This document shows, one piece after another, positions 34,606 through 57,005 of a stretch of DNA of 64,000 nucleotides. Source of the stretch: Polyangiaceae bacterium (lineage in GTDB: Bacteria > Myxococcota_A > Polyangia > Polyangiales > Polyangiaceae). The stretch covers positions 186,001 through 250,000 of the forward strand of contig JAICUB010000001.1 in the NCBI GenBank assembly GCA_025936045.1, written 5' to 3'. The notes beneath the pieces are model-generated. The model was not told the DNA's origin and made no database searches. It was given only the letters and a program-made list of their open reading frames with translations. The translations under genes and the position numbers were made by a program. Position 1 is the first letter of the stretch. Each line of letters begins with the position of its first letter.

Positions 34606-36497
34606 TGACCAGTGCTGTGGTTCGAGAGCGGCTTGCCGGCCGCATTGTCAGCGACCGCACTCGTGAACGCAGGACTCGCGGCATTGACGGCGCGGAACGT
34701 GCCGTCACCGTTGGAAAACGCGATGCGTACGCCCGTCCAGCCCGGAACGCCGAGCAGCGCAATGTCGTCTCGTCGATCGCCGTCGAAGTCGCCCGCAATG
34801 ACCTTCACGCCCGCGGTCCGCGACCAGCCGGGAAAGCCACTGACGGTCTTGTTCGTCACGGTTACCTGAAAACTCGCCGTTCCGCCGTCCATCAGCACGA
34901 CTGGGCGTGAGAACGCGACGGGGATGGTGGTCCAGTTCGCTCCGCCGACGAGAGCGATATCGGTGCGACCATCACCGTCGAAATCACCCGTGACCGGTAT
35001 TGCACCGCTCGTCCTCGCGTAGTTCGCGAACGTGGTCTGTGCATAATTGAGAACGGTAAAGGTCCCGTTACCATTCGAGAAGGCATACGGGATTGACCCC
35101 CAGTTCGTGCCGCCGACCGCCGCAAGGTCGTCACGGCCGTCACCATCGAAATCACCCGCTACCGGTTTGGCACCGGGCTGAGCCGCGTACACGGGGAAGT
35201 CGGTCACGCTGTAGTTCGTGTCGGCCCATGCTCCTCCCCCCTGACTGAATGCCACCGGAATCGTACTCCAGTTTACCCCTGCCGTGAGCGCGATGTCGTC
35301 CCGCCCATCGCCGTCGAAGTCACCGGAGACCGGCAGCGCGCCGGCCAAGGCCGCATAAGTGGGAAAGTTTCCGGCGGCGTCGTTTACCTCCGTGAAAGTG
35401 GAGTCCCCATTCGCGAGTGCAACCGGCAGTGTCCACCAGTCGAGTCCTCCCGTCAGTGCCACGTCACTGAGTCCATCTCCGTCGAAATCCCCCGATACGG
35501 CCTTGACGTTCGGGGCGGTGGCCCAATTCGAAAAATTTGGCTCGTACGGGTTCGTCCCGGAATAGGTGAAGGTGCCGTCGCCGTTCGAGACACCGAACGG
35601 CAACGTCGTCCAGCCCGACACACCTGTCACCGTAATGTCGGACTTGCCGTCTCCGTTGACGTCGCCTTGCACGAACACCGCCCGCTTGATCCAGCTGCGA
35701 AACGCATCGACATGTTGATCGTACGTGAAGAGCCAGTCAGGGTCCTGTTCACGCGAGCGCTGATTGGAGTGGTGAATTCCGAGGACCCAATTCCCCGGCC
35801 GCCCCAAAACGTCGTATACCCGCGTCGTTGGACCGCCGGAGTCACCATGCCAGGCGTACTGCCCGCCGTTCGTGCTGTTCGGAGCGATCGAGAAAAGCGT
35901 GTAGAGGTTCTGGGCCACCGTGTTTTGGGACTGGCGGAGCGTTCCCGAGCCGCTTCCCGTCGGAGTCAGCGGGGCAGGGTCGGGCAGGATTGACGTATTC
36001 TGACCGTAGCCCTCCATCGAAACGTTGAGGTTCACCGTCGCATAGCCGTTATAGAGGGGCCACCAACCTGTTTCCGCATGGTTCAGCAGCACGAGGACGA
36101 TGTCCTCCGGGTCTTGCGCACCGTTGGCCGCTTGCCAACTGGTCGGATGAAACTCGCTGACATGCACCAACTGATTCGTATAGTTCGAATTGATGACGAG
36201 GCCCGGCGAAACCGCGCGGGAAGTCCAGATGGCCGAGATGGGAGAACGCAAGGGCCCCCCGGCGGATCCATCCGAGGTCACACAGTGACGCGCTGTCAGT
36301 GCCCAATAACGTCGGATGAGGACGCCGGAGCAGACGCCGTTCCCCGCGTTTAATGCCATTACGGCACCGTTGTTGATGACATTGTAGCCGTTTACAATCT
36401 CTTCGGCGGACTGGCTAGTCTCGCCCGCGTTTTCCGTCGGCGCGACACAACCGACCAGCGCCACCGCCATCACCCAACCCAATTGCAACGTCTTCAT
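34602..36497 (-). CDS. Trypsin-like serine protease with FG-GAP/VCBS repeats
   Basis: This 631-residue secreted protein has lipobox 'VALVGC', then an S1 protease domain. The triad is visible: His in 'LTARHCV', Asp in 'DPEDIVLVLL', Ser in 'GDSGGP'. From about residue 275 there are roughly six FG-GAP/VCBS-like repeats of about 50 residues. Each has a 'GDFDGDGxxD' calcium-binding loop and 'NWxTIPVAFSNGDGTF', expected to fold as a beta-propeller. The propeller probably gives surface binding while the protease acts. It stands downstream of a small LuxR-type gene on the same strand. Confidence 0.9.
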   Translation of the reverse strand: MKTLQLGWVMAVALVGCVAPTENAGETSQSAEEIVNGYNVINNGAVMALNAGNGVCSGVLIRRYWALTARHCVTSDGSAGGPLRSPISAIWTSRAVSPGLVINSNYTNQLVHVSEFHPTSWQAANGAQDPEDIVLVLLNHAETGWWPLYNGYATVNLNVSMEGYGQNTSILPDPAPLTPTGSGSGTLRQSQNTVAQNLYTLFSIAPNSTNGGQYAWHGDSGGPTTRVYDVLGRPGNWVLGIHHSNQRSREQDPDWLFTYDQHVDAFRSWIKRAVFVQGDVNGDGKSDITVTGVSGWTTLPFGVSNGDGTFTYSGTNPYEPNFSNWATAPNVKAVSGDFDGDGLSDVALTGGLDWWTLPVALANGDSTFTEVNDAAGNFPTYAALAGALPVSGDFDGDGRDDIALTAGVNWSTIPVAFSQGGGAWADTNYSVTDFPVYAAQPGAKPVAGDFDGDGRDDLAAVGGTNWGSIPYAFSNGNGTFTVLNYAQTTFANYARTSGAIPVTGDFDGDGRTDIALVGGANWTTIPVAFSRPVVLMDGGTASFQVTVTNKTVSGFPGWSRTAGVKVIAGDFDGDRRDDIALLGVPGWTGVRIAFSNGDGTFRAVNAASPAFTSAVADNAAGKPLSNHSTGH

Positions 36498-49477: not shown

Positions 49478-49830
49478 CCGCGCGATCTCTTGTTCCCGGC
49501 GATCACGGGAGGGTTCCGTTCACCGTCCGTCCTGAACAAGCCGTTCGCTGACGTTGCCGAGACCCTTGGCTTCCCGCCGCTCACGCAGCGAGGGCTCCGA
49601 CGCACGTTCCAAGACCTGTGCCGAAAGGCGGAGGTGGAGGACCTCATGAAGAGGAGCATCAGTGGGCACGCCACCGAAGATGGGCTACTCGACCGTGAAC
49701 CCCGACGAGCGCAGCGTGCCGTCGCCAAGGTCATCGAGCTCTTCGGCCAGGGAAGAGCGACGTCATCCTCGTCCGAACCGTTGACTGGTACCTGGGACGG
49801 TGCCCAACACCCGGAGGTGGTACCCAGAAC
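49478..49830 (+). pseudogene. Decayed tyrosine recombinase 3' end
   Basis: This fragment is homologous to the last third of the intact recombinase at 54795-56114: 'DLLFPAITGGFRSPSVLNKPFADVAE' and 'LTQRGLRRTFQDL...RSISGH'. The nucleophilic Tyr region ('GYSTVNPDERS') is present but in a shifted frame. The 5' two thirds are missing. It ends in the same hairpin and 44-bp repeat as the intact gene, so it is the relic of an earlier element in tandem. Confidence 0.8.
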
Positions 49831-49831
49831 G

Positions 49832-49866
49832 AAAAAACCGGCCAGCGCTCTGCGCCAACCGGTTGA
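49832..49866. terminator. Bidirectional hairpin terminator at outer att copy
   Basis: An A-run is followed by AACCGG (49837-49842) ... CCGGTT (49859-49864). It is homologous to the terminator next to tRNA-Gly at 56101-56138, showing that this whole recombinase-end/terminator/att unit is duplicated. Confidence 0.55.
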
Positions 49867-49882
49867 TTCGTCTCAGCTTTTC

Positions 49883-49926
49883 GGAGCGGGAGAAGAGATT
49901 CGAACTCTCGACGTCCACCTTGGCAA
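49883..49926. repeat. Outer att site: 44-bp direct repeat of tRNA-Gly 3' half
   Basis: These 44 bases are identical to 56152-56195, the 3' half of tRNA-Gly(GCC) up to the anticodon loop. After the repeat the sequence departs (aaacgaa here, ggtggca in the tRNA). It is the attachment site left at the far end of the integrated element. Confidence 0.9.
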
Positions 49927-50021
49927 AACGAATTTGACCGTCCCCTCCCGTTCCCTTGCGAGCCAACTACGCGGAATCCCGTGACCCGGCGTCCCGGGAC
50001 GACCCTCCGCGTGACGGGCAA

Positions 50022-50061
50022 GTGGTGCTCCGGGTGGTGCTCCGAGAGGTCGGAGCACCAC
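50022..50061. repeat. Candidate recombinase arm-type sites, left end (hairpin)
   Basis: GTGGTGCTCC occurs at 50022-50031 and 50034-50043 and inverted at 50052-50061. The last two are part of a perfect inverted repeat with 13-bp arms and a 4-base loop (50033-50062). The same 10-mer occurs twice near the right end (56053-56062 and 56086-56095). Its place near both att copies suits arm-type binding by the integrase N-terminal domain. Confidence 0.5.
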
Positions 50062-50062
50062 C

Positions 50063-50425
50063 TCGGCGCTTCCGGTTGCTGCCCAGGGGTTAGGTCGTTC
50101 CCGCATGCCAGGATTTCTGATCATTCGGGCCGCGGATTTGTTCCCCGATTCGAATGGTCATTTGTTTGGGAGGTGCGAGAGGCACCCGCCGGGGAGGAAT
50201 AACGCCCGCTAAGCTACCGGCCAGAAAAATGCGGACAACCAACAGTCGGTCTTGTCTCAACGGGACTTGCGCCAACGGCTTTCATTCCGCGATCCAGTCG
50301 CAGTCCACCACGCAATTCGCACCGTCTTGCGTGCGCCGGGGTGAGCGAGACGCTGCGCGGGCGGCAAGGATGAGCCACACTTGACTCCAGCGGTAAAGTC
50401 AACGTATGTGCGGCTCGAGGGTCAA
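50063..50425. other. Left-end spacer of the element, no gene seen
   Basis: There is no convincing open frame or RNA gene between the hairpin and the lipoprotein start. It probably holds that gene's promoter. Confidence 0.45.
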
Positions 50426-51811
50426 ATGCGGTCGTCCAGTAAAAACGTGGCTTGGGCCAGGGCGCTCCGGTTTGCTGCGGCGCGTACGCGGGCACTCGGC
50501 ATCTTAGCGCTCGTGGCCCCGGGGTGCGCCACCAGTCGCACGCGTGGCGACAACGACTCCGCAGCCGGCGGCCATGGCGCGGTTCACGTGTCTGGTTCAA
50601 GTGAAATGCCAGCTGGCCGGAGCAACGGGATGGGTGGCTCGAACGGGGGCGCGAGCGATGACTCCGCCGGCGAAGCTGCCAATCCAAATGGTCAGGCAGC
50701 AAGCTCCAACGGCGGCGATAGCCAGGATGAGTCCGACGGCGGCACCGGTGGTGCAACGACAAGCGCTTCTGGCGGGGTTGGTGGAAGGGATTCCGCCGGT
50801 TCAGGTGCACGCGAGCCCTCGGGTGGAACCGGACTCGCCTCGGGGACGGGCGGTAGCGGGGCGGGAGCGGGAGCGGGAGCCGGAGGCGGAGCGGTCCACT
50901 ACTCAGGAAACTGGACGGGCCGCTATTCAGCGAGCGATGAATATGGATTGTCGTTCCTGGTGGACGAATCCGGAACGATGAGAGCTATCACGCTGACCGA
51001 TTCGTCGTCGTCCTGTGGCGGCACAGGTTTAGTCGAGGGCGTAAATCAAGGACCAATCGTCATTGGACCCGGTGGCGACTTCGAGGCCGTCGTGATCGGT
51101 TGCGGGAAGGCCGCTTGCTTCACCGACCACCTCGTCGGGCAATTGTCGGGCGATGGGACGGCACAAGGGACGCTGATCCACTATGGCGCGTGTGGATTGA
51201 CGGGGTGCACTTCCGTGGTGAGCGGCAGCACGGGGCAAGCCTGGAGCGCCGCGACGAGCTGCGCGCTCCGCCCGACCGCAGGCGTTTCGGCGTCTCGCTT
51301 CTGCGACGAGGCAGGCATGCCGCGGTCCGACTCGACGGGTGCGATGGCGACGACGCTTGGCGGTACTACCTGCTCGGTAACGCCGTCGGGTTCGGGCGGC
51401 ACCAGCGGACAAGGAGCCGGAGGTTCGTCGGGTGCCGGGGGAAGGACGGGCAACGCGGGTTCGGGCAATGGCGGTGCGCCGGTAGACTACCACTTGGGCG
51501 AGCAATGCGGCGACGTTGGCTGTCCACCGGTGTTTCAAGGCGACGAGTGCAGCTGCACGGACGGATCCACTGACTGTCTTACGATGGCTTACTATTGGGT
51601 ACAATCCGATGCCTGCGGTGGCGGGAGATGTGTTGGCAATTGGAGCTCTACCAAGCAGTGCTCCGCGCCGTGCGAAACTGATCAAGACTGCGACAATCCG
51701 ACGCTTGAAATGCATTGCCTGACGGCATGTCCGGGTTTTCCCGCGCTTGAAGGTGAAGTCACCGGACTCTGCTGGCCCGTCGACGCATTCGCGTTTAGCG
51801 ACTGCAAATGA
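50426..51811 (+). CDS. Gly/Ser-rich, Cys-rich lipoprotein carried by the element
   Basis: This 461-residue protein has a lipobox 'LVAPGC' at about residue 34. A long Gly/Ser/Ala linker is followed by a beta-rich domain ('VHYSGNWTGRYSASDEYGLSFLVDESGTMRAITL'), a second Gly-rich linker and a C-terminal Cys-rich domain. In the last part, cysteine pairs such as 'CGDVGCPP', 'CSCTDGSTDC' and 'CGGGRCVG' suggest disulfides. No family recognised. The ATG at 50426 has GAGG upstream; an earlier start at 50381 is possible. It is probably displayed on the outer surface as element cargo. Confidence 0.75.
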   Translation: MRSSSKNVAWARALRFAAARTRALGILALVAPGCATSRTRGDNDSAAGGHGAVHVSGSSEMPAGRSNGMGGSNGGASDDSAGEAANPNGQAASSNGGDSQDESDGGTGGATTSASGGVGGRDSAGSGAREPSGGTGLASGTGGSGAGAGAGAGGGAVHYSGNWTGRYSASDEYGLSFLVDESGTMRAITLTDSSSSCGGTGLVEGVNQGPIVIGPGGDFEAVVIGCGKAACFTDHLVGQLSGDGTAQGTLIHYGACGLTGCTSVVSGSTGQAWSAATSCALRPTAGVSASRFCDEAGMPRSDSTGAMATTLGGTTCSVTPSGSGGTSGQGAGGSSGAGGRTGNAGSGNGGAPVDYHLGEQCGDVGCPPVFQGDECSCTDGSTDCLTMAYYWVQSDACGGGRCVGNWSSTKQCSAPCETDQDCDNPTLEMHCLTACPGFPALEGEVTGLCWPVDAFAFSDCK

Positions 51812-53064
51812 CGGCCACCCCCGAAGTTTCTATTGGCGATCACTGCACCCGCGAACCTCCGCCGTTGAGTTCAGTATAGCGACTCGCTACCCCATCGACG
51901 TCCCTAATCTAAGGAGGTGATCGACGTCCTTATCGGCGTCGACGCCGCCGTCAGCCCAGACTTCGGCGACTGCAGGGGCGACCTCGCAAGCAACGACGAC
52001 TACCTCTTCTGCAGAGCCGCCTCGGACGTCCCGCGGCTGAGCCATGACGGAAGCGGCTCGAAAACGATCGAGACGACTCCCGCTGCGGCCCGGTGGTCGT
52101 CTCGGCCGACCACTTGTACATGAACTGTCCAAGCGGTATCGAATGGATGGCCGTCGCAGCCCGCGAATTGACCTTCATTCGGAAGCCCCGCGACACGCAC
52201 CAACAGGTCACAGACGCAGCGGATCGCGATTGGTGCGGAGTTCTTTTGTTGGGCAGAGCCGACCGGCGTCTTTCGGGCGGCCAAGCCAGCCTGGCCATAG
52301 GAGTCTCGGCGAGCAGCGTTATGGCGTGATGGCAGGGGCACCGCGCGTGCACCAGGTTAGACTAGCAGGTTGTTGAAAATCGGGCTGGGCGGCGGCCGAT
52401 GGATGGACAGGTCGAGCGCGGTGTGATCAAAGGTGGGGATGCGCGGCGAAGTTACGAAGCAGCAGTCGATGTTGATGCTCCGCTCGGCGGAGGGCTCTGG
52501 AAGTCCGGCGCCAAGTGTTGGGGGGCGATGCCTGGGAGCTGGCGGCCCGCAGTGTTCGTACAGGGGCCGACAAGGGCGAGAGCGCTCGCTCGGACCGACC
52601 GGGGCGGGGGCGCGCTGTGGCTCCTCGCCGAGCTCGAGCACGTCCAAGCAGTCGGCGTCCTCGGGCCAGTCTTTGCAACGGCCGCAGCGATTGCCGCGTT
52701 GCCAAGAGGGACACCTATTCGCTCCGAGGGTGCCCTTGCGCCTGCCCTCCCCGCGATACCCGTGGAGGTACAACCGTGACGGTGTTCCCGGACCTCTGCG
52801 TCGTGGCCGCGCCTGCGTGCCCTTGCACTTGCCCTCTCCGCGAAGGCAGACCGGAGTCGCAAAGCCCGCACGTTTACTGCAGCGCCGCTTCGCGCGGCTG
52901 GTGCGCCTTCAAGATCTTTGAAGGTTGGTTTCCCCGCGCGGTGTTCAAGGCCGACGCGCTCGACCCACGAGCGCTTCAAGAAGGAAGGGACGTTGCCGAA
53001 GGTCTGAAAGTCGAAGGCGTCAGAGCGGGTAGTGCATGGGCGGGCCGGCCCCGGCTCAACTCCT
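51812..53064. other. Unassigned or decayed middle of the element
   Basis: Frames are open on both strands but none looks like a known protein. Two curiosities lie here: AAGGAGGTGATC at 51911-51922, complementary to the 16S rRNA 3' tail, with no good start codon after it; and a repeated 27-base unit near 52730-52756 and 52818-52844 that would encode Cys-Pro-Cys motifs. A sequence near 52371 resembles the end of some insertion sequences but no partner end was found. Confidence 0.4.
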
Positions 53065-53400
53065 ATGTCAAACGCAGCAACTCAACGGCGTATCGCGTGG
53101 TCGTGGGGACCAGCTTCGCGCTCGTGGACCTGGAAGAAGATCGTCGCGGCCAGTCTGGCGGCCTATGGCGGGACGGCATCGCTCGCGCAGCTCTACAGCA
53201 TCATCGAGCCCCATCCCGGAACGAGGACGCGCAAGCACTGGAAAGCGAAGATTCGCCAGGTCCTCGAGCTGTCGGACAAGGTCATCCGCATGGATCGCGG
53301 CGTCTGGAGTCTCGCGTCAAAGCACAAGGCGAAAACCATCAGGAAACTGAAGGCGCGTCGCCGAAGGCTCTACCCGAAGCGGTCCGAAGCCGAACGCTGA
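53065..53400 (+). CDS. Winged-helix (HARE-HTH-like) small protein
   Basis: This 111-residue protein has a clear winged-helix core: 'TWKKIVAASLAAYGGTASLAQLYSIIEPH', then 'HWKAKIRQVLELSDKVIRMDRGVWSLA'. This strand-helix-helix-wing pattern is seen in HARE-HTH and similar domains. The C-terminus is a highly basic helix ('KLKARRRRLYPKR'). The protein likely binds DNA. ATG 53065 gives the shortest plausible start; the N-terminal 25 residues look poorly conserved. It may regulate or defend the element. Confidence 0.6.
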   Translation: MSNAATQRRIAWSWGPASRSWTWKKIVAASLAAYGGTASLAQLYSIIEPHPGTRTRKHWKAKIRQVLELSDKVIRMDRGVWSLASKHKAKTIRKLKARRRRLYPKRSEAER

Positions 53401-53706
53401 CGACGATCATTGGCACGTCTCATCCAGGAGGGCGCGGTGCGCCGGGGTCGGTTGATCGCCCCTGCACTTTGCCGTGGCTGACGGCGCTTCGAAGCGCGTC
53501 GGCGCCGCCGTGCTCTCCGCTTTTCCGGGTGAAGGTGGACTGCTCCTCCGTTCGCCCCTTGTTCACGGTGCCGTTGGCACCAGAAGGAGGTCGGTCGCGG
53601 TGCAGGCGGATGGCTGAAGCGAAGGTGACGGTTCTTGGAACGAGGCGCGCCCGCGCGGCGTGGCTCTCATCCCGGGCCGTCACTCACTCTTTAACCATAC
53701 GAGAAT
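53401..53706. other. Spacer, no gene seen
   Basis: I see no credible gene. A promoter for the downstream 231-aa gene is expected, and the AT-richer 'actctttaaccatacgag' just before the start is the best place. Confidence 0.4.
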
Positions 53707-54402
53707 ATGACAACCAATCTGCACTACGCGATCCGAAGGTCGCCGGAAAATCCGAAAGTCCTGAGCTGGGCTCTGCAAGCCCAGGCCAAGTTGAACGAAC
53801 GGCTCTCGCCGTTTCGCGATCGTCTAAGCCTTGCGGCCGTCTCGGCTGCGCCCGAGCGTCCGATGCTTGGGTTTCCCTTCGTTCGGATCGCTCCAGCGCG
53901 CATCGGCCCGTACGCGATCCCGGATCTGTTTCAAGACCGCTCGCCGGTTCATACGCCCAACGCCGTCGCAGTTGGCGCGACCAAGGTCAGGGACCTGTTC
54001 TCTGCCCACGTGGTCGCCGCTTTTCTGCGCTCCGTGTCGAAGGCGTATCCGGAGTGCGTGCTCGAGCTCCGGGACGAGTCTGGGCAGTTCGTCTTGCCGC
54101 TCGGCATCGTGATCCGTTCCGGCGGGCGACTCGAGCTAAACGCGGAGGTTCTGAACGCGGAGCGAGCCAAGGTGCTCGAGGCGACTGGCGATCCGCAAGC
54201 GGCAGCCCCGTTCCTCTGGGCCGAAGCACAAGCGTTGAACGGCCAGGTTCTTTCGGACAGCCCTGCGACGGAGATCATGGAGGCACCTGAAGTCAAAGAA
54301 CTCGATCTGGATCCTGAGGTGTTCGAGCAAGCGACTGTCGGCAATATCGCGAGCTTCTTCGTGGAGCGCGTGATCGCCGATACCGCCCCCGTCGCCAATT
54401 GA
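53707..54402 (+). CDS. Unrecognised 231-aa cargo protein
   Basis: This soluble alpha/beta protein has an N-terminal helical region ('SPENPKVLSWALQAQAKLNERLSPF'). The middle is beta-rich ('FPFVRIAPARIGPYAIPDLFQDRSPVHTPNAVAVGATKVRDLF') and the end acidic ('APEVKELDLDPEVFEQATVGNIASFFVERVIADT'). No signal peptide, membrane segment or catalytic motif was recognised. It sits between a winged-helix gene and the excisionase-like gene. It could be a recombination accessory factor, structural or defensive protein; I cannot choose. Confidence 0.6.
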   Translation: MTTNLHYAIRRSPENPKVLSWALQAQAKLNERLSPFRDRLSLAAVSAAPERPMLGFPFVRIAPARIGPYAIPDLFQDRSPVHTPNAVAVGATKVRDLFSAHVVAAFLRSVSKAYPECVLELRDESGQFVLPLGIVIRSGGRLELNAEVLNAERAKVLEATGDPQAAAPFLWAEAQALNGQVLSDSPATEIMEAPEVKELDLDPEVFEQATVGNIASFFVERVIADTAPVAN

Positions 54403-54553
54403 TCCCGCTCTGCACCCTCGACTGACCAAGCGGGAGGGGCTGGGCATCGCGAGCCCGGGATGAAAGCGCCCGCGCGGGCCACATCCTTCCAAGGAAACCG
54501 CCCGCCAACGCTCACTGGTTCGCGCTTGCCCCGCCCCGAACGTCCATACGACC

Positions 54554-55165
54554 ATGTCCCCCGTCCGCACGTACCTCACGACCCGCGAAGTCGCCGCATA
54601 CTGCGGCTTCAAGAGCACCTCCGCGATTCGCAAGGCCGTGCTCCGAGGGCAGCTCGTTCCAGCCGGTCGCCGCGGCGGTCGCGGCACTTGTGTCTTCGCC
54701 ATCGAAGCCCTCGACGCCTATCTCGTCGGCTCTCCGTCCTCTGCTACGGTTGCATCGGGTCGTCCCGGGGCGCCTTCGCAAGAAGGAGTCCCTCATGGAC
54801 ACGAAACAATGGACAAGACGCTGGAAAACGTGGGTGAAGCCCACCAAGCTGCCGGGCGTCTGGCAGCGGAAGGAAGGAGGATACCTGGTTCGCGTGCGAG
54901 TCACCGACGCGACGACGGGTCACCTAGTCGAGATCAAGAAGGTGTTGCCGGAGACGACGGAAGCGAAGGCGTTCCAATGGCTCAACGCCGAACGAACGCG
55001 CATCAGGACCGGCGCCGCATCGGACACGCCTCAAAGGATGCGCTTCGCGGAATACGCGCAGCGTCTCTTCGAGCGGAAGCTCGCGACCATGGAGATCCGG
55101 AGCGCCAAGGGGCGCGCGAAGTGGACCAACACGCTGGAGCACCTCATCGCGGGCTCGCGCGGTAG
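54554..55165 (+). CDS. Excisionase-like HTH protein overlapping the recombinase
   Basis: The first 60 residues form a MerR/excisionase-type helix-turn-helix: 'YLTTREVAAYCGFKSTSAIRKAVLRGQLVPAGRRGGRG', then 'FAIEALDAYL'. Proteins like this bind att DNA and direct excision. The frame stays open to 55165, overlapping the recombinase by 371 bases in another frame. The part after about residue 75 looks like shadow of the recombinase. The original stop may have been lost by frameshift near 54790. Confidence 0.6.
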   Translation: MSPVRTYLTTREVAAYCGFKSTSAIRKAVLRGQLVPAGRRGGRGTCVFAIEALDAYLVGSPSSATVASGRPGAPSQEGVPHGHETMDKTLENVGEAHQAAGRLAAEGRRIPGSRASHRRDDGSPSRDQEGVAGDDGSEGVPMAQRRTNAHQDRRRIGHASKDALRGIRAASLRAEARDHGDPERQGAREVDQHAGAPHRGLAR

Positions 55166-56114
55166 GAAGAGCGGGCTTGTGGCGAAGGGTTTTGGAGAGA
55201 TGTTCCTCGATCAGATCGGGGTCGGGCAGGTGGAGGCGTGGAAGGCCGAGCTCGCGGGGCTCGTCCGCGTCGGCGACTACAAGCCGACCACGTGCAACGG
55301 CTGGCTCACGATCTTGCGCGTCGTCCCAAAAGCCGCGAAGCGGGAGCTGTCGCTCCCCATTCTCGCGACCGAAGGCGTCCGCGACCTCGATGAGTCGGAG
55401 CACGCCACCTACACGGAGGAAGAGCCCAACGCCCTTCTTCCTGAAGAGGTGCCGCGCTTCCTCGAGGCTGTGCGCGAGCTGCACCCAGCACACTACGCGA
55501 TGACGTTTTTGGGTCTGGCGACAGGCCTACGACCCTCATCGCTCCGTCCTCTGCGTCGAAAGGGGCACGCGGCGGATGTGCTGTGGGATGAGGGGAAGCT
55601 CCTCGTCAGGCGCTCGCACACCGCGCGCGCCGAGGTCATGAACACGACGAAGCAGCGCGTGCGCTACCGGATCCACCTCCCCGAGCCCGTGCTCGAGGTG
55701 CTCCGTTGGCACATCCGGACCCAGCTGCCGACGCCGGAGATGCAGGAGAGCGATCTCTTGTTCCCTTCGACGACGGGCGGCTTTCGGTCGCCCTGCGTGT
55801 TGAACAAGCCGTTCGCCGACGTGGCTGACGCGGTCGGGTTGGGCAAGGCCGTCACGCAGCGCGGGCTTCGCCGCACGTTCAACGACCTCGCGCGGGCCGC
55901 CGCGATCGAGGGCGTCGTCACGAGGAGCATCTCGGGCCACCTGACCGAGCGGATGCAGCACCACTACTCGACGGTGAACGCCGACGAGCAGCGGGGCAGC
56001 ATCGCGCGAGTGATCGACCTCATGGAGGCGCGCGACGAGCGCAGCTCCGCAGGTGGTGCTCCGACTGGTGCCCCGGCCCCCTCAAGTGGTGCTCCAAACG
56101 AAAAAACCGGCTGA
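54795..56114 (+). CDS. int: Tyrosine recombinase / integrase
   Basis: This 439-residue protein has an AP2-like N-terminal arm-binding region ('GVWQRKEGGYLVRVRVTDATTG'), a core-binding domain, and a catalytic domain. Catalytic Arg246 lies in 'TGLRPSSLR', Arg359 in box II, a His in 'SISGHLTERM' and nucleophile Tyr391 in 'HHYSTV'. The box II His (HxLR) is replaced by Arg356. A strong AAGGAG site precedes ATG 54795. It is 38 bases from the 44-bp att core in tRNA-Gly and is surely its recombinase. Confidence 0.92.
   Translation: MDTKQWTRRWKTWVKPTKLPGVWQRKEGGYLVRVRVTDATTGHLVEIKKVLPETTEAKAFQWLNAERTRIRTGAASDTPQRMRFAEYAQRLFERKLATMEIRSAKGRAKWTNTLEHLIAGSRGRKSGLVAKGFGEMFLDQIGVGQVEAWKAELAGLVRVGDYKPTTCNGWLTILRVVPKAAKRELSLPILATEGVRDLDESEHATYTEEEPNALLPEEVPRFLEAVRELHPAHYAMTFLGLATGLRPSSLRPLRRKGHAADVLWDEGKLLVRRSHTARAEVMNTTKQRVRYRIHLPEPVLEVLRWHIRTQLPTPEMQESDLLFPSTTGGFRSPCVLNKPFADVADAVGLGKAVTQRGLRRTFNDLARAAAIEGVVTRSISGHLTERMQHHYSTVNADEQRGSIARVIDLMEARDERSSAGGAPTGAPAPSSGAPNEKTG
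56053..56095. repeat. Candidate recombinase arm-type sites, right end
   Basis: GTGGTGCTCC at 56053-56062 and 56086-56095, with a degenerate copy between, lies inside the recombinase 3' coding end. It encodes Gly-Ala-Pro repeats. The same 10-mer occurs three times at the left end (50022-50061). Confidence 0.45.
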
Positions 56115-56138
56115 CGCTCAGCGCCAACCGGTTGTTTT
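56101..56138. terminator. Bidirectional terminator between integrase and tRNA-Gly
   Basis: AACCGG (56105-56110) pairs with CCGGTT (56128-56133), with an inner CTGA/TCAG hairpin. A T-run on the minus strand (A56101-56106) ends tRNA transcription, and a T-rich stretch (56132-56138) ends the integrase transcript. Confidence 0.75.
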
Positions 56139-56150
56139 CTCTCCAGATTC

Positions 56151-56225
56151 TGGAGCGGGAGAAGAGATTCGAACTCTCGACGTCCACCTTGGCAAGGTGG
56201 CACTCTACCGCTGAGTTACTCCCGC
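56151..56225 (-). tRNA. tRNA-Gly (GCC)
   Basis: This gene reads on the minus strand. The acceptor stem GCGGGAG/CTCCCGC is perfect, a D-loop lies near AGCGGTAGAG, the anticodon stem CCACC/GGTGG encloses loop TTGCCAA with anticodon GCC, the T-arm contains GTTCGAATC, and CCA is encoded at 56153-56151. Its 3' half is the integration core; the element restores the gene. A sigma-70 promoter lies upstream. Confidence 0.95.
56152..56195. repeat. Inner att site: 44-bp direct repeat in tRNA-Gly
   Basis: Identical to 49883-49926. It covers the tRNA from the 3' terminus to the anticodon loop, a usual attB position for tyrosine recombinases. Confidence 0.9.
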
Positions 56226-56312: not shown

Positions 56313-57005
56313 ATGCCGAACGCACCGCCGCCCCCGATCCTCTACCGCGACGCCCGCCTCGTCGCGGTCGACAAGCCGGCCGGCACCGTCGTCCATCGCG
56401 GCTGGGCGAACGACGACGAGCCGCTCCTCCAAGCCGTGCGCGACCTGGTCGGCCAGTACGTGTTCCCGGTGCACCGGCTCGACCGCGGAGCGTCCGGCGT
56501 CGTGCTCTTCGCGCTCGACGCCGAAGCGGCCGCCGCGCTCGCGCGTAGTTGGCGTGATCCGGACCGTCTGGACAAACGCTACCTCGCGATCACCCGGGGT
56601 CACCCGCCCGCTCACGTGCTCATCGACCACGCGATCCCGCGCGAGCCCGGCGCCGAACGCGTCGCTGCCGTCACGGAGGTGTGGCTGCGTGAAATCATCG
56701 GGCGGTACGCGCTCGTCGAGGCGCGCCCGCATACCGGGCGGCTCCACCAAATCCGTCGCCATCTGAAGCACCTCGCGTGTCCGCTCGTCGGCGACGTGAA
56801 GTACGGCAAAGGCGAGCACAACCGGCTCTGGCGCACCGAGCACGGCTTGCACCGTCTCGCGCTCCACGCGACGCGCCTCACGTTCCCACACCCCGAAACC
56901 CAGACGCCCGTCACCATCCACGCGCCGCTCCCCGCCGACCTCGGCGCGGCGCTCGCCTCCGCCCGCGCCGCCGTCGCCAGCCCGCACCCATGTACGTATA
57001 CATAG
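56313..57005 (+). CDS. truC: tRNA pseudouridine synthase (RluA/TruC type)
   Basis: This 230-residue RluA-family enzyme has the catalytic motif 'VHRLDRGASGV' (Asp is the nucleophile), a conserved 'YRDARLVAVDKPAGTVVH' start, and 'ARPHTGRLHQIRRHLKH', typical of TruC/RluA. There is no S4 domain, and the length matches TruC, which modifies U65 of tRNA-Asp. Assignment to TruC over other RluA members rests on size and the QIRRHLKH motif. It is not coupled to neighbours. Confidence 0.85.
   Translation: MPNAPPPPILYRDARLVAVDKPAGTVVHRGWANDDEPLLQAVRDLVGQYVFPVHRLDRGASGVVLFALDAEAAAALARSWRDPDRLDKRYLAITRGHPPAHVLIDHAIPREPGAERVAAVTEVWLREIIGRYALVEARPHTGRLHQIRRHLKHLACPLVGDVKYGKGEHNRLWRTEHGLHRLALHATRLTFPHPETQTPVTIHAPLPADLGAALASARAAVASPHPCTYT

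Follow-up and report, generated by a model that had tools for sequence, protein, structure and literature searches.

How does half of a tRNA gene come to stand twice in a chromosome, with recombinase sequence beside each copy? The question is raised by a locus of a Polyangiaceae bacterium, analysed here in a 64-kb window from a contig of 293.8 kb (bases 186001-250000). The draft genome to which it belongs measures 6.37 Mb in 87 contigs, with 86.6% completeness and 4.3% contamination. Away from the locus, the window carries at 34756-35666 six copies of a 38-nt repeat, mostly at 168-nt spacing, which probably belong to a repeat-domain protein.

The answer that fits best, with a probability of roughly 0.88, is that a small inner element was integrated at tRNA-Gly(GCC) by a recombinase of the lambda type, with arm sites at both of its ends, after an older relative had used the same tRNA.

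The att core and its tRNA target

Three features mark the target gene and the ends of the inner element:

56151-56225, minus strand: tRNA-Gly(GCC), the target gene (ARAGORN; Rfam RF00005), whose 3' half would be supplied by the inner element
56152-56195: 44-bp att core at the tRNA, reaching from its 3' end to the anticodon loop (sequence comparison)
49883-49926: displaced copy of the 44-bp att core, the distal end of the inner element (sequence comparison; genome search)

The sequence-only reading had recognized the 3' half of the tRNA in an exact repeat, and this is borne out: the copies are identical over exactly 44 nt, with divergence on both sides, and a pattern search of the 6.37-Mb genome that allowed up to 3 mismatches finds these two copies only (the reversed pattern, as a control, is found nowhere in it). 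Outside the core, similarity persists at 81% over 124 nt, a homologous hairpin terminator included. The repeat might have been part of a second true tRNA gene, a case that the same reading had itself raised against its proposal, but ARAGORN and Rfam give one tRNA only at this site, a tRNA-Gly(GCC) that is also the only one of its kind in the window. Since the sequence beyond the left copy continues into the unrelated AACGAATTTG, that copy represents the displaced end of a tRNA rather than a second tRNA. The locus thus has a whole tRNA at one end and a displaced 3' fragment at the other, the arrangement by which tRNA-targeting islands are recognized, and the integrase gene (PF00589) is situated between both att copies.

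In the proposed mechanism, a lambda-type recombinase would recombine the 44-bp core of attP with the 3' half of tRNA-Gly(GCC). This recombination would rebuild the tRNA, and the old 3' half would be pushed, together with its terminator, 6.27 kb downstream.

Genes and cargo of the inner element

The inner element has the following components:

49927-56151: inner element, measuring about 6.27 kb when one core is counted, delimited by the two core copies and by matching arm repeats at both ends
54795-56114, plus strand: tyrosine recombinase (integrase, Int) of 439 aa, facing the 3' end of the tRNA (PF00589; PHROG integrase; lambda Int-like model)
54554-55165, plus strand: HTH_17/MerR-like ORF, candidate excision or directionality factor, overlapping int from upstream (PF12728; PHROG MerR-like)
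53707-54402, plus strand: cargo ORF of 231 aa, rare in the class (no Pfam, NCBIfam or PADLOC match)
53032-53400, plus strand: cargo ORF of 122 aa without family match, with homologues near recombinase genes in several genomes
50381-51811, plus strand: cargo ORF of 476 aa, Gly-rich, a possible lipoprotein (lipobox-like LVAPGC by eye; no family match)
56105-56133: element-borne hairpin terminator between int and the tRNA (fold of -25.3 kcal/mol for a 55-nt stretch)

An intact recombinase beside one of the 44-bp copies had been reported from the letters alone, and the 439-aa product with its PF00589 match upholds this. The core starts 37 nt past the int stop, behind the hairpin, which can terminate both int and the tRNA, a presumed dual role. 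The HTH ORF matches PF12728 at an E-value of 7e-5, under the Pfam cut-off, and its homologues sit directly upstream of int in relatives; this protein would be the likely directionality factor. Its frame stays open far into int, and in locus L075 the match of the homologue stops just before int.

The integrase and the HTH protein are the only matches that PHROGs, Pfam, NCBIfam and PADLOC give in the inner element, and the 476-, 122- and 231-aa ORFs have none in these collections (further family searches with the 231-aa protein gave nothing convincing). No conjugation or relaxase family was matched by any ORF of the inner element, which is therefore classed neither as an ICE nor as an IME, and no phage structural, packaging or replication gene was found in it, PHROGs returning only the integrase and the MerR-like regulator. 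This agrees with the claim that the element lacks conjugation and phage genes. Relatives of the 231-aa gene are present in 4 of 289 genomes of the class and those of the 122-aa gene in 7 of 289, the present genome counted. Homologues of both lie on one contig in G250 and stand together in G156 (L155:4475-8819), here beside a large gene resembling a serine recombinase, so that the pair looks as if it travels with different recombinases; in G082 and G087, homologues of the 122-aa gene are found beside tyrosine recombinases. Both genes look like mobile cargo. Altogether, 49927-56151 is an integrated small integrative element that is probably still functional, and in itself it is an ordinary one.

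Probable arm-type repeats at both ends

Short repeats are arranged inside both ends of the inner element, all of them recognized as sequence repeats:

50020-50031, plus strand: arm-type repeat AAGTGGTGCTCC, distal end
50032-50043, plus strand: arm-type repeat GGGTGGTGCTCC, distal end
50052-50063, minus strand: arm-type repeat AGGTGGTGCTCC, distal end, inverted
56051-56062, plus strand: arm-type repeat AGGTGGTGCTCC, inside the int coding tail
56063-56074, plus strand: imperfect arm-type repeat GACTGGTGCCCC, 12 nt on from the copy at 56051
56084-56095, plus strand: arm-type repeat AAGTGGTGCTCC, inside the int coding tail

The exact 11-mer GGTGGTGCTCC occurs at three sites only in the 64 kb (50033, 50052 and 56052), two inside the left end of the element and one within the int coding tail. 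At the level of sequence, the core is thus flanked on either side by repeats, as in lambda-type systems, and the matched repeats are very probably arm-type sites. The recombinase would bridge the core and arm-type sites RRGTGGTGCTCC, set at 12-nt spacing inside both element ends, those on the right falling within the final codons of int.

The same arrangement recurs in the recombinase family. In most members, the part of the int tail that runs from the catalytic domain to the terminator holds an element-specific repeat in at least two copies, spaced by 12 nt; of 68 recombinase tails, 48 have such a repeat with a match of at least 9/10 (as controls, 0-3 tails have one at another spacing, and 0.25 after shuffling). 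An earlier set of 25 had given 19 int ends with the repeat, with 0 at 12 nt in internal control stretches of the same genes. A readable GTGG-type repeat is present in 47 tails, of which 35 belong to near-full-length recombinases, and consists of RRGTGG followed by a variable half, the GTGG portion of this consensus being fixed by the alignment itself; a few other tails have variants such as GCGGTATGC or GTGTGCTCC.

A spacing of 12 nt is also four codons, so that the repeat of the int end could partly be a protein repeat. The distal copies lie outside int, and this explanation therefore does not cover them. Among the elements with both ends available (n=8), 7 of 8 show the repeat of the int end again at the far end, 84-120 nt inward of the distal core. 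The best 23-nt match between ends is 17-23 in the seven same-element pairs vs 14-19 when ends are swapped, and the weakest matched element, that of G080, scores 17 against a row maximum of 16. The eighth, in G172, has two ends that do not match each other; it was set aside as a clean two-ended element, since its far end is without a matching repeat, and is probably composite.

The N-terminal domain and recognition of the repeats

The variable half of the repeat offers a way to ask which part of the recombinase reads it. In the 35 near-full-length members its similarity tracks how far the N-terminal domains are identical (partial Mantel r 0.34, p 0.0005, catalytic identity fixed) and not how far the catalytic domains are (r 0.02), and N-terminal columns show more covariation with the repeat than the rest of the protein (p 4e-6), both tests treating pairs and columns as exchangeable and modelling the tree incompletely. 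Repeat type thus appears to follow the N-terminal domain rather than the catalytic one. The strongest single covariation is that of residue 36, in the N-terminal sheet; residues 34, 36 and 48, which lie in strands two and three, all rank near the top.

The predicted topology of this domain is β-β-β-α (pLDDT about 80), and its model resembles the arm-binding domain of the HPI integrase (3jtz) with a modest Z of 4.2. The model of the whole Int matches lambda Int over its full length (E 3e-5), at a mean pLDDT of 68.6 and with a poor catalytic part; a profile search of Int against solved structures gave no sequence match. The conserved catalytic residues are R246, K286, R359, H382 and Y391, and the first His (HxxR) is Arg or Lys in the members aligned. 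On the strength of these models, the N-terminal domain (about residues 12-75) is a predicted arm-binding domain of the lambda type, and would be the part of the recombinase that reads the arm sites.

Directionality factors also bind repeats near att sites, and the GTGG repeats could on this ground be sites of the HTH protein, or of another regulator, instead of arm sites of the recombinase. This is unlikely, as the dependence on the recombinase's own N-terminal domain speaks against it, as do the position of the sites on both sides of the core, where arm sites lie, and the likeness of the domain to known arm-binding domains. Recognition by the recombinase remains the preferred reading.

The type of arm repeat shows no association with the tRNA target. 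The same repeat, GTGGTGCTCC, is found with recombinases at tRNA-Gly, Val and Arg, and arm and core recognition are therefore separable.

The scar of an older element

The displaced core is directly bordered on its outer side by a terminator, by three repeats and by the final third of a recombinase:

49481-49774, plus strand: remnant of an older recombinase, corresponding to Int residues 319-420 (54% protein match; catalytic Tyr segment out of frame)
49783-49826, plus strand: arm-like repeats of the older element, GACTGGTACCTG, GGACGGTGCCCA and AGGTGGTACCCA, laid out as in the inner element with a different sequence
49836-49864: terminator of the older element, homologous to 56105-56133

The decayed, homologous recombinase end that had been read beside the displaced copy is thereby substantiated, together with its homologous terminator. 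Residues 1-318 are missing, and the segment with the catalytic Tyr, YSTVN, stands in another frame. A dead recombinase remnant, 54% identical, with a homologous terminator outside the displaced copy argues that an older relative used the site earlier. The repeats lie at offsets of 0, 12 and 32 in the older element and of 0, 12 and 33 in the inner one; because they read GTGGTACC (sites GTGGTACCC) in this similar layout, instead of GTGGTGCTCC, the relative that held the site first was presumably a different one. It would have integrated at this tRNA with arm sites of the GTGGTACC type, and all that is left of it would be the final third of the recombinase, the terminator and a core copy. With remnant int, terminator and repeats abutting the displaced core, the locus shows tandem accretion. 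Two related elements, inserted successively, had been proposed here; the succession is backed by the remnant, its terminator and its different repeats, and what needs revision is the outer "element," which is a one-ended scar. The suggested search for a third 44-bp copy found none to about 110 kb left of 49883-49926. No distal core was found, and the scar is for this reason not a CIME, i.e., a decayed element with both att sites.

The genome of the nearest genus relative, G242, is colinear with the present one from 57.1 to 83 kb in window coordinates, up to its tRNA-Gly, which has no adjoining recombinase and shares its upstream neighbors with the window. Left of the tRNA there is no colinearity, about 170 kb here having been compared with 135 kb of G242, so that genome order breaks at the tRNA and no strictly empty site is seen. 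Of the two flanks expected around an unoccupied site in a relative, G242 has the right one, beside a recombinase-free tRNA-Gly, and its left side is not colinear. An RluA-family gene (56313-57005) lies between tRNA-Gly and a kinase gene here and is absent from this place in the otherwise colinear G242. Both genomes also have, at a similar distance from tRNA-Gly, an isolated block with an ArsM-like methyltransferase, an ArsR-like regulator and a sigma factor (-3593 to -1501 in window coordinates; G000:C66:182408-184500). This block, about 51-53 kb from the tRNA in both, was considered as a shared left border and rejected, as colinearity stops beyond it.

The loss of colinearity leftward from the tRNA is what a very large island would give, and the locus could accordingly be a tandem of two whole elements, the outer one extending far left to a distal att copy. 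This is distinctly improbable: besides the missing third core, no cluster of outer-type repeats that might mark a hidden distal end was found to about 170 kb left, and the outer recombinase is truncated, with a broken frame. A single integration, the outer fragment being a duplicated and decayed piece of the inner int with a duplicated tRNA end, would account for the order int end, terminator, core shared by both pieces, but is very improbable, since a recent duplicate would be near-identical, yet the remnant is at 54% in protein and 81% in DNA around a core at 100%, and its repeats are of another type. The order preferred here, an older relative followed by the inner element, is that which the repeats and the remnant suggest.

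Distribution and stacking

Related recombinases occur in 108 of the 289 genomes sampled in the class, and the named matches come from metagenome-assembled Polyangiaceae, Myxococcales and other genomes labelled as Deltaproteobacteria. Int has no match in the phage collection at E 1e-5 and none in the viral collection. For most members with enough 3' sequence, the targets are the 3' ends of tRNA-Gly (GCC or CCC), tRNA-Val (GAC or CAC) and tRNA-Arg (TCG). Contents differ: the 15.4-kb element at tRNA-Gly(CCC) in G170 (L172:4265-16084) carries a Wadjet system of type II, complete with JetA-D, as well as an IetAS pair, and that of G027 is prophage-like in gene content, judged by eye.

Stacking at one tRNA recurs for this family in five other genomes, where a recombinase, or what remains of one, precedes a displaced tRNA end: G172, G221, G240, G173 (two contigs) and a named genome of the Polyangiaceae. 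In each of the two G173 contigs (L094 and L095), a recombinase of the family adjoins a displaced end of tRNA-Gly, which suggests that several elements are stacked there.

Relation to known systems and meaning

Islands at tRNA genes have been catalogued in Islander, with 125 tandem arrays (two or more) among 3919 islands (PMC4383910). The present locus shares with them the intact tRNA, the displaced 3' fragment, the integrase in between and a core that extends to the anticodon loop; it differs in that the outer member is a one-ended scar and in the arm-repeat match, an extra and independent mark of the boundary. Site-specific accretion with decayed neighbors is also described for streptococcal IME-CIME tandems (PMC5704250), whereas here there is no conjugation or relaxase gene and the neighbor has no distal att. 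The lambda-type tyrosine recombinases (PMC8138268) have in common with this Int an N-terminal arm-binding fold, core-binding and catalytic domains and flanking arm repeats, but here the first catalytic His is replaced by Arg or Lys and the arm sites of one side lie in the int coding tail. The Myxococcus phages Mx8 and Mx9 (PMC6070905) likewise have myxobacterial integrases, and the attP of Mx8 is part of the coding sequence of int; by contrast, the core here follows the int stop, and int is unchanged on integration. Comparable with the arm-site series, on a small scale, are the Cluster K mycobacteriophages, whose related integrases have different arm-type repeats, which the authors tied to changes in the N-terminal domain (PMC3203893); the present series extends to dozens of elements at several tRNA targets, with the spacing fixed at 12 nt.

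Mechanism and stacking are of known kinds, and the arm-site series is the part of use to specialists. It separates arm from core recognition and makes an arm-site code directly testable, the recombinases of this family being a ready test set for the recognition of DNA by enzymes, via their end tags. It also gives a rule to delimit islands even when the core has decayed, namely to search the far end for the repeat that the recombinase tail carries. A tentative generalization, held at less than even odds, is that bacteria of the Polyangia type hold a large family of tRNA elements that combine one shared kind of core target with a diversified arm code (a constant GTGG and a variable half), which would be set by a few residues in strands two and three of the N-terminal domain and would let stacked elements be excised independently. 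If this is true, elements residing together at one tRNA would not be excised by each other's recombinase.
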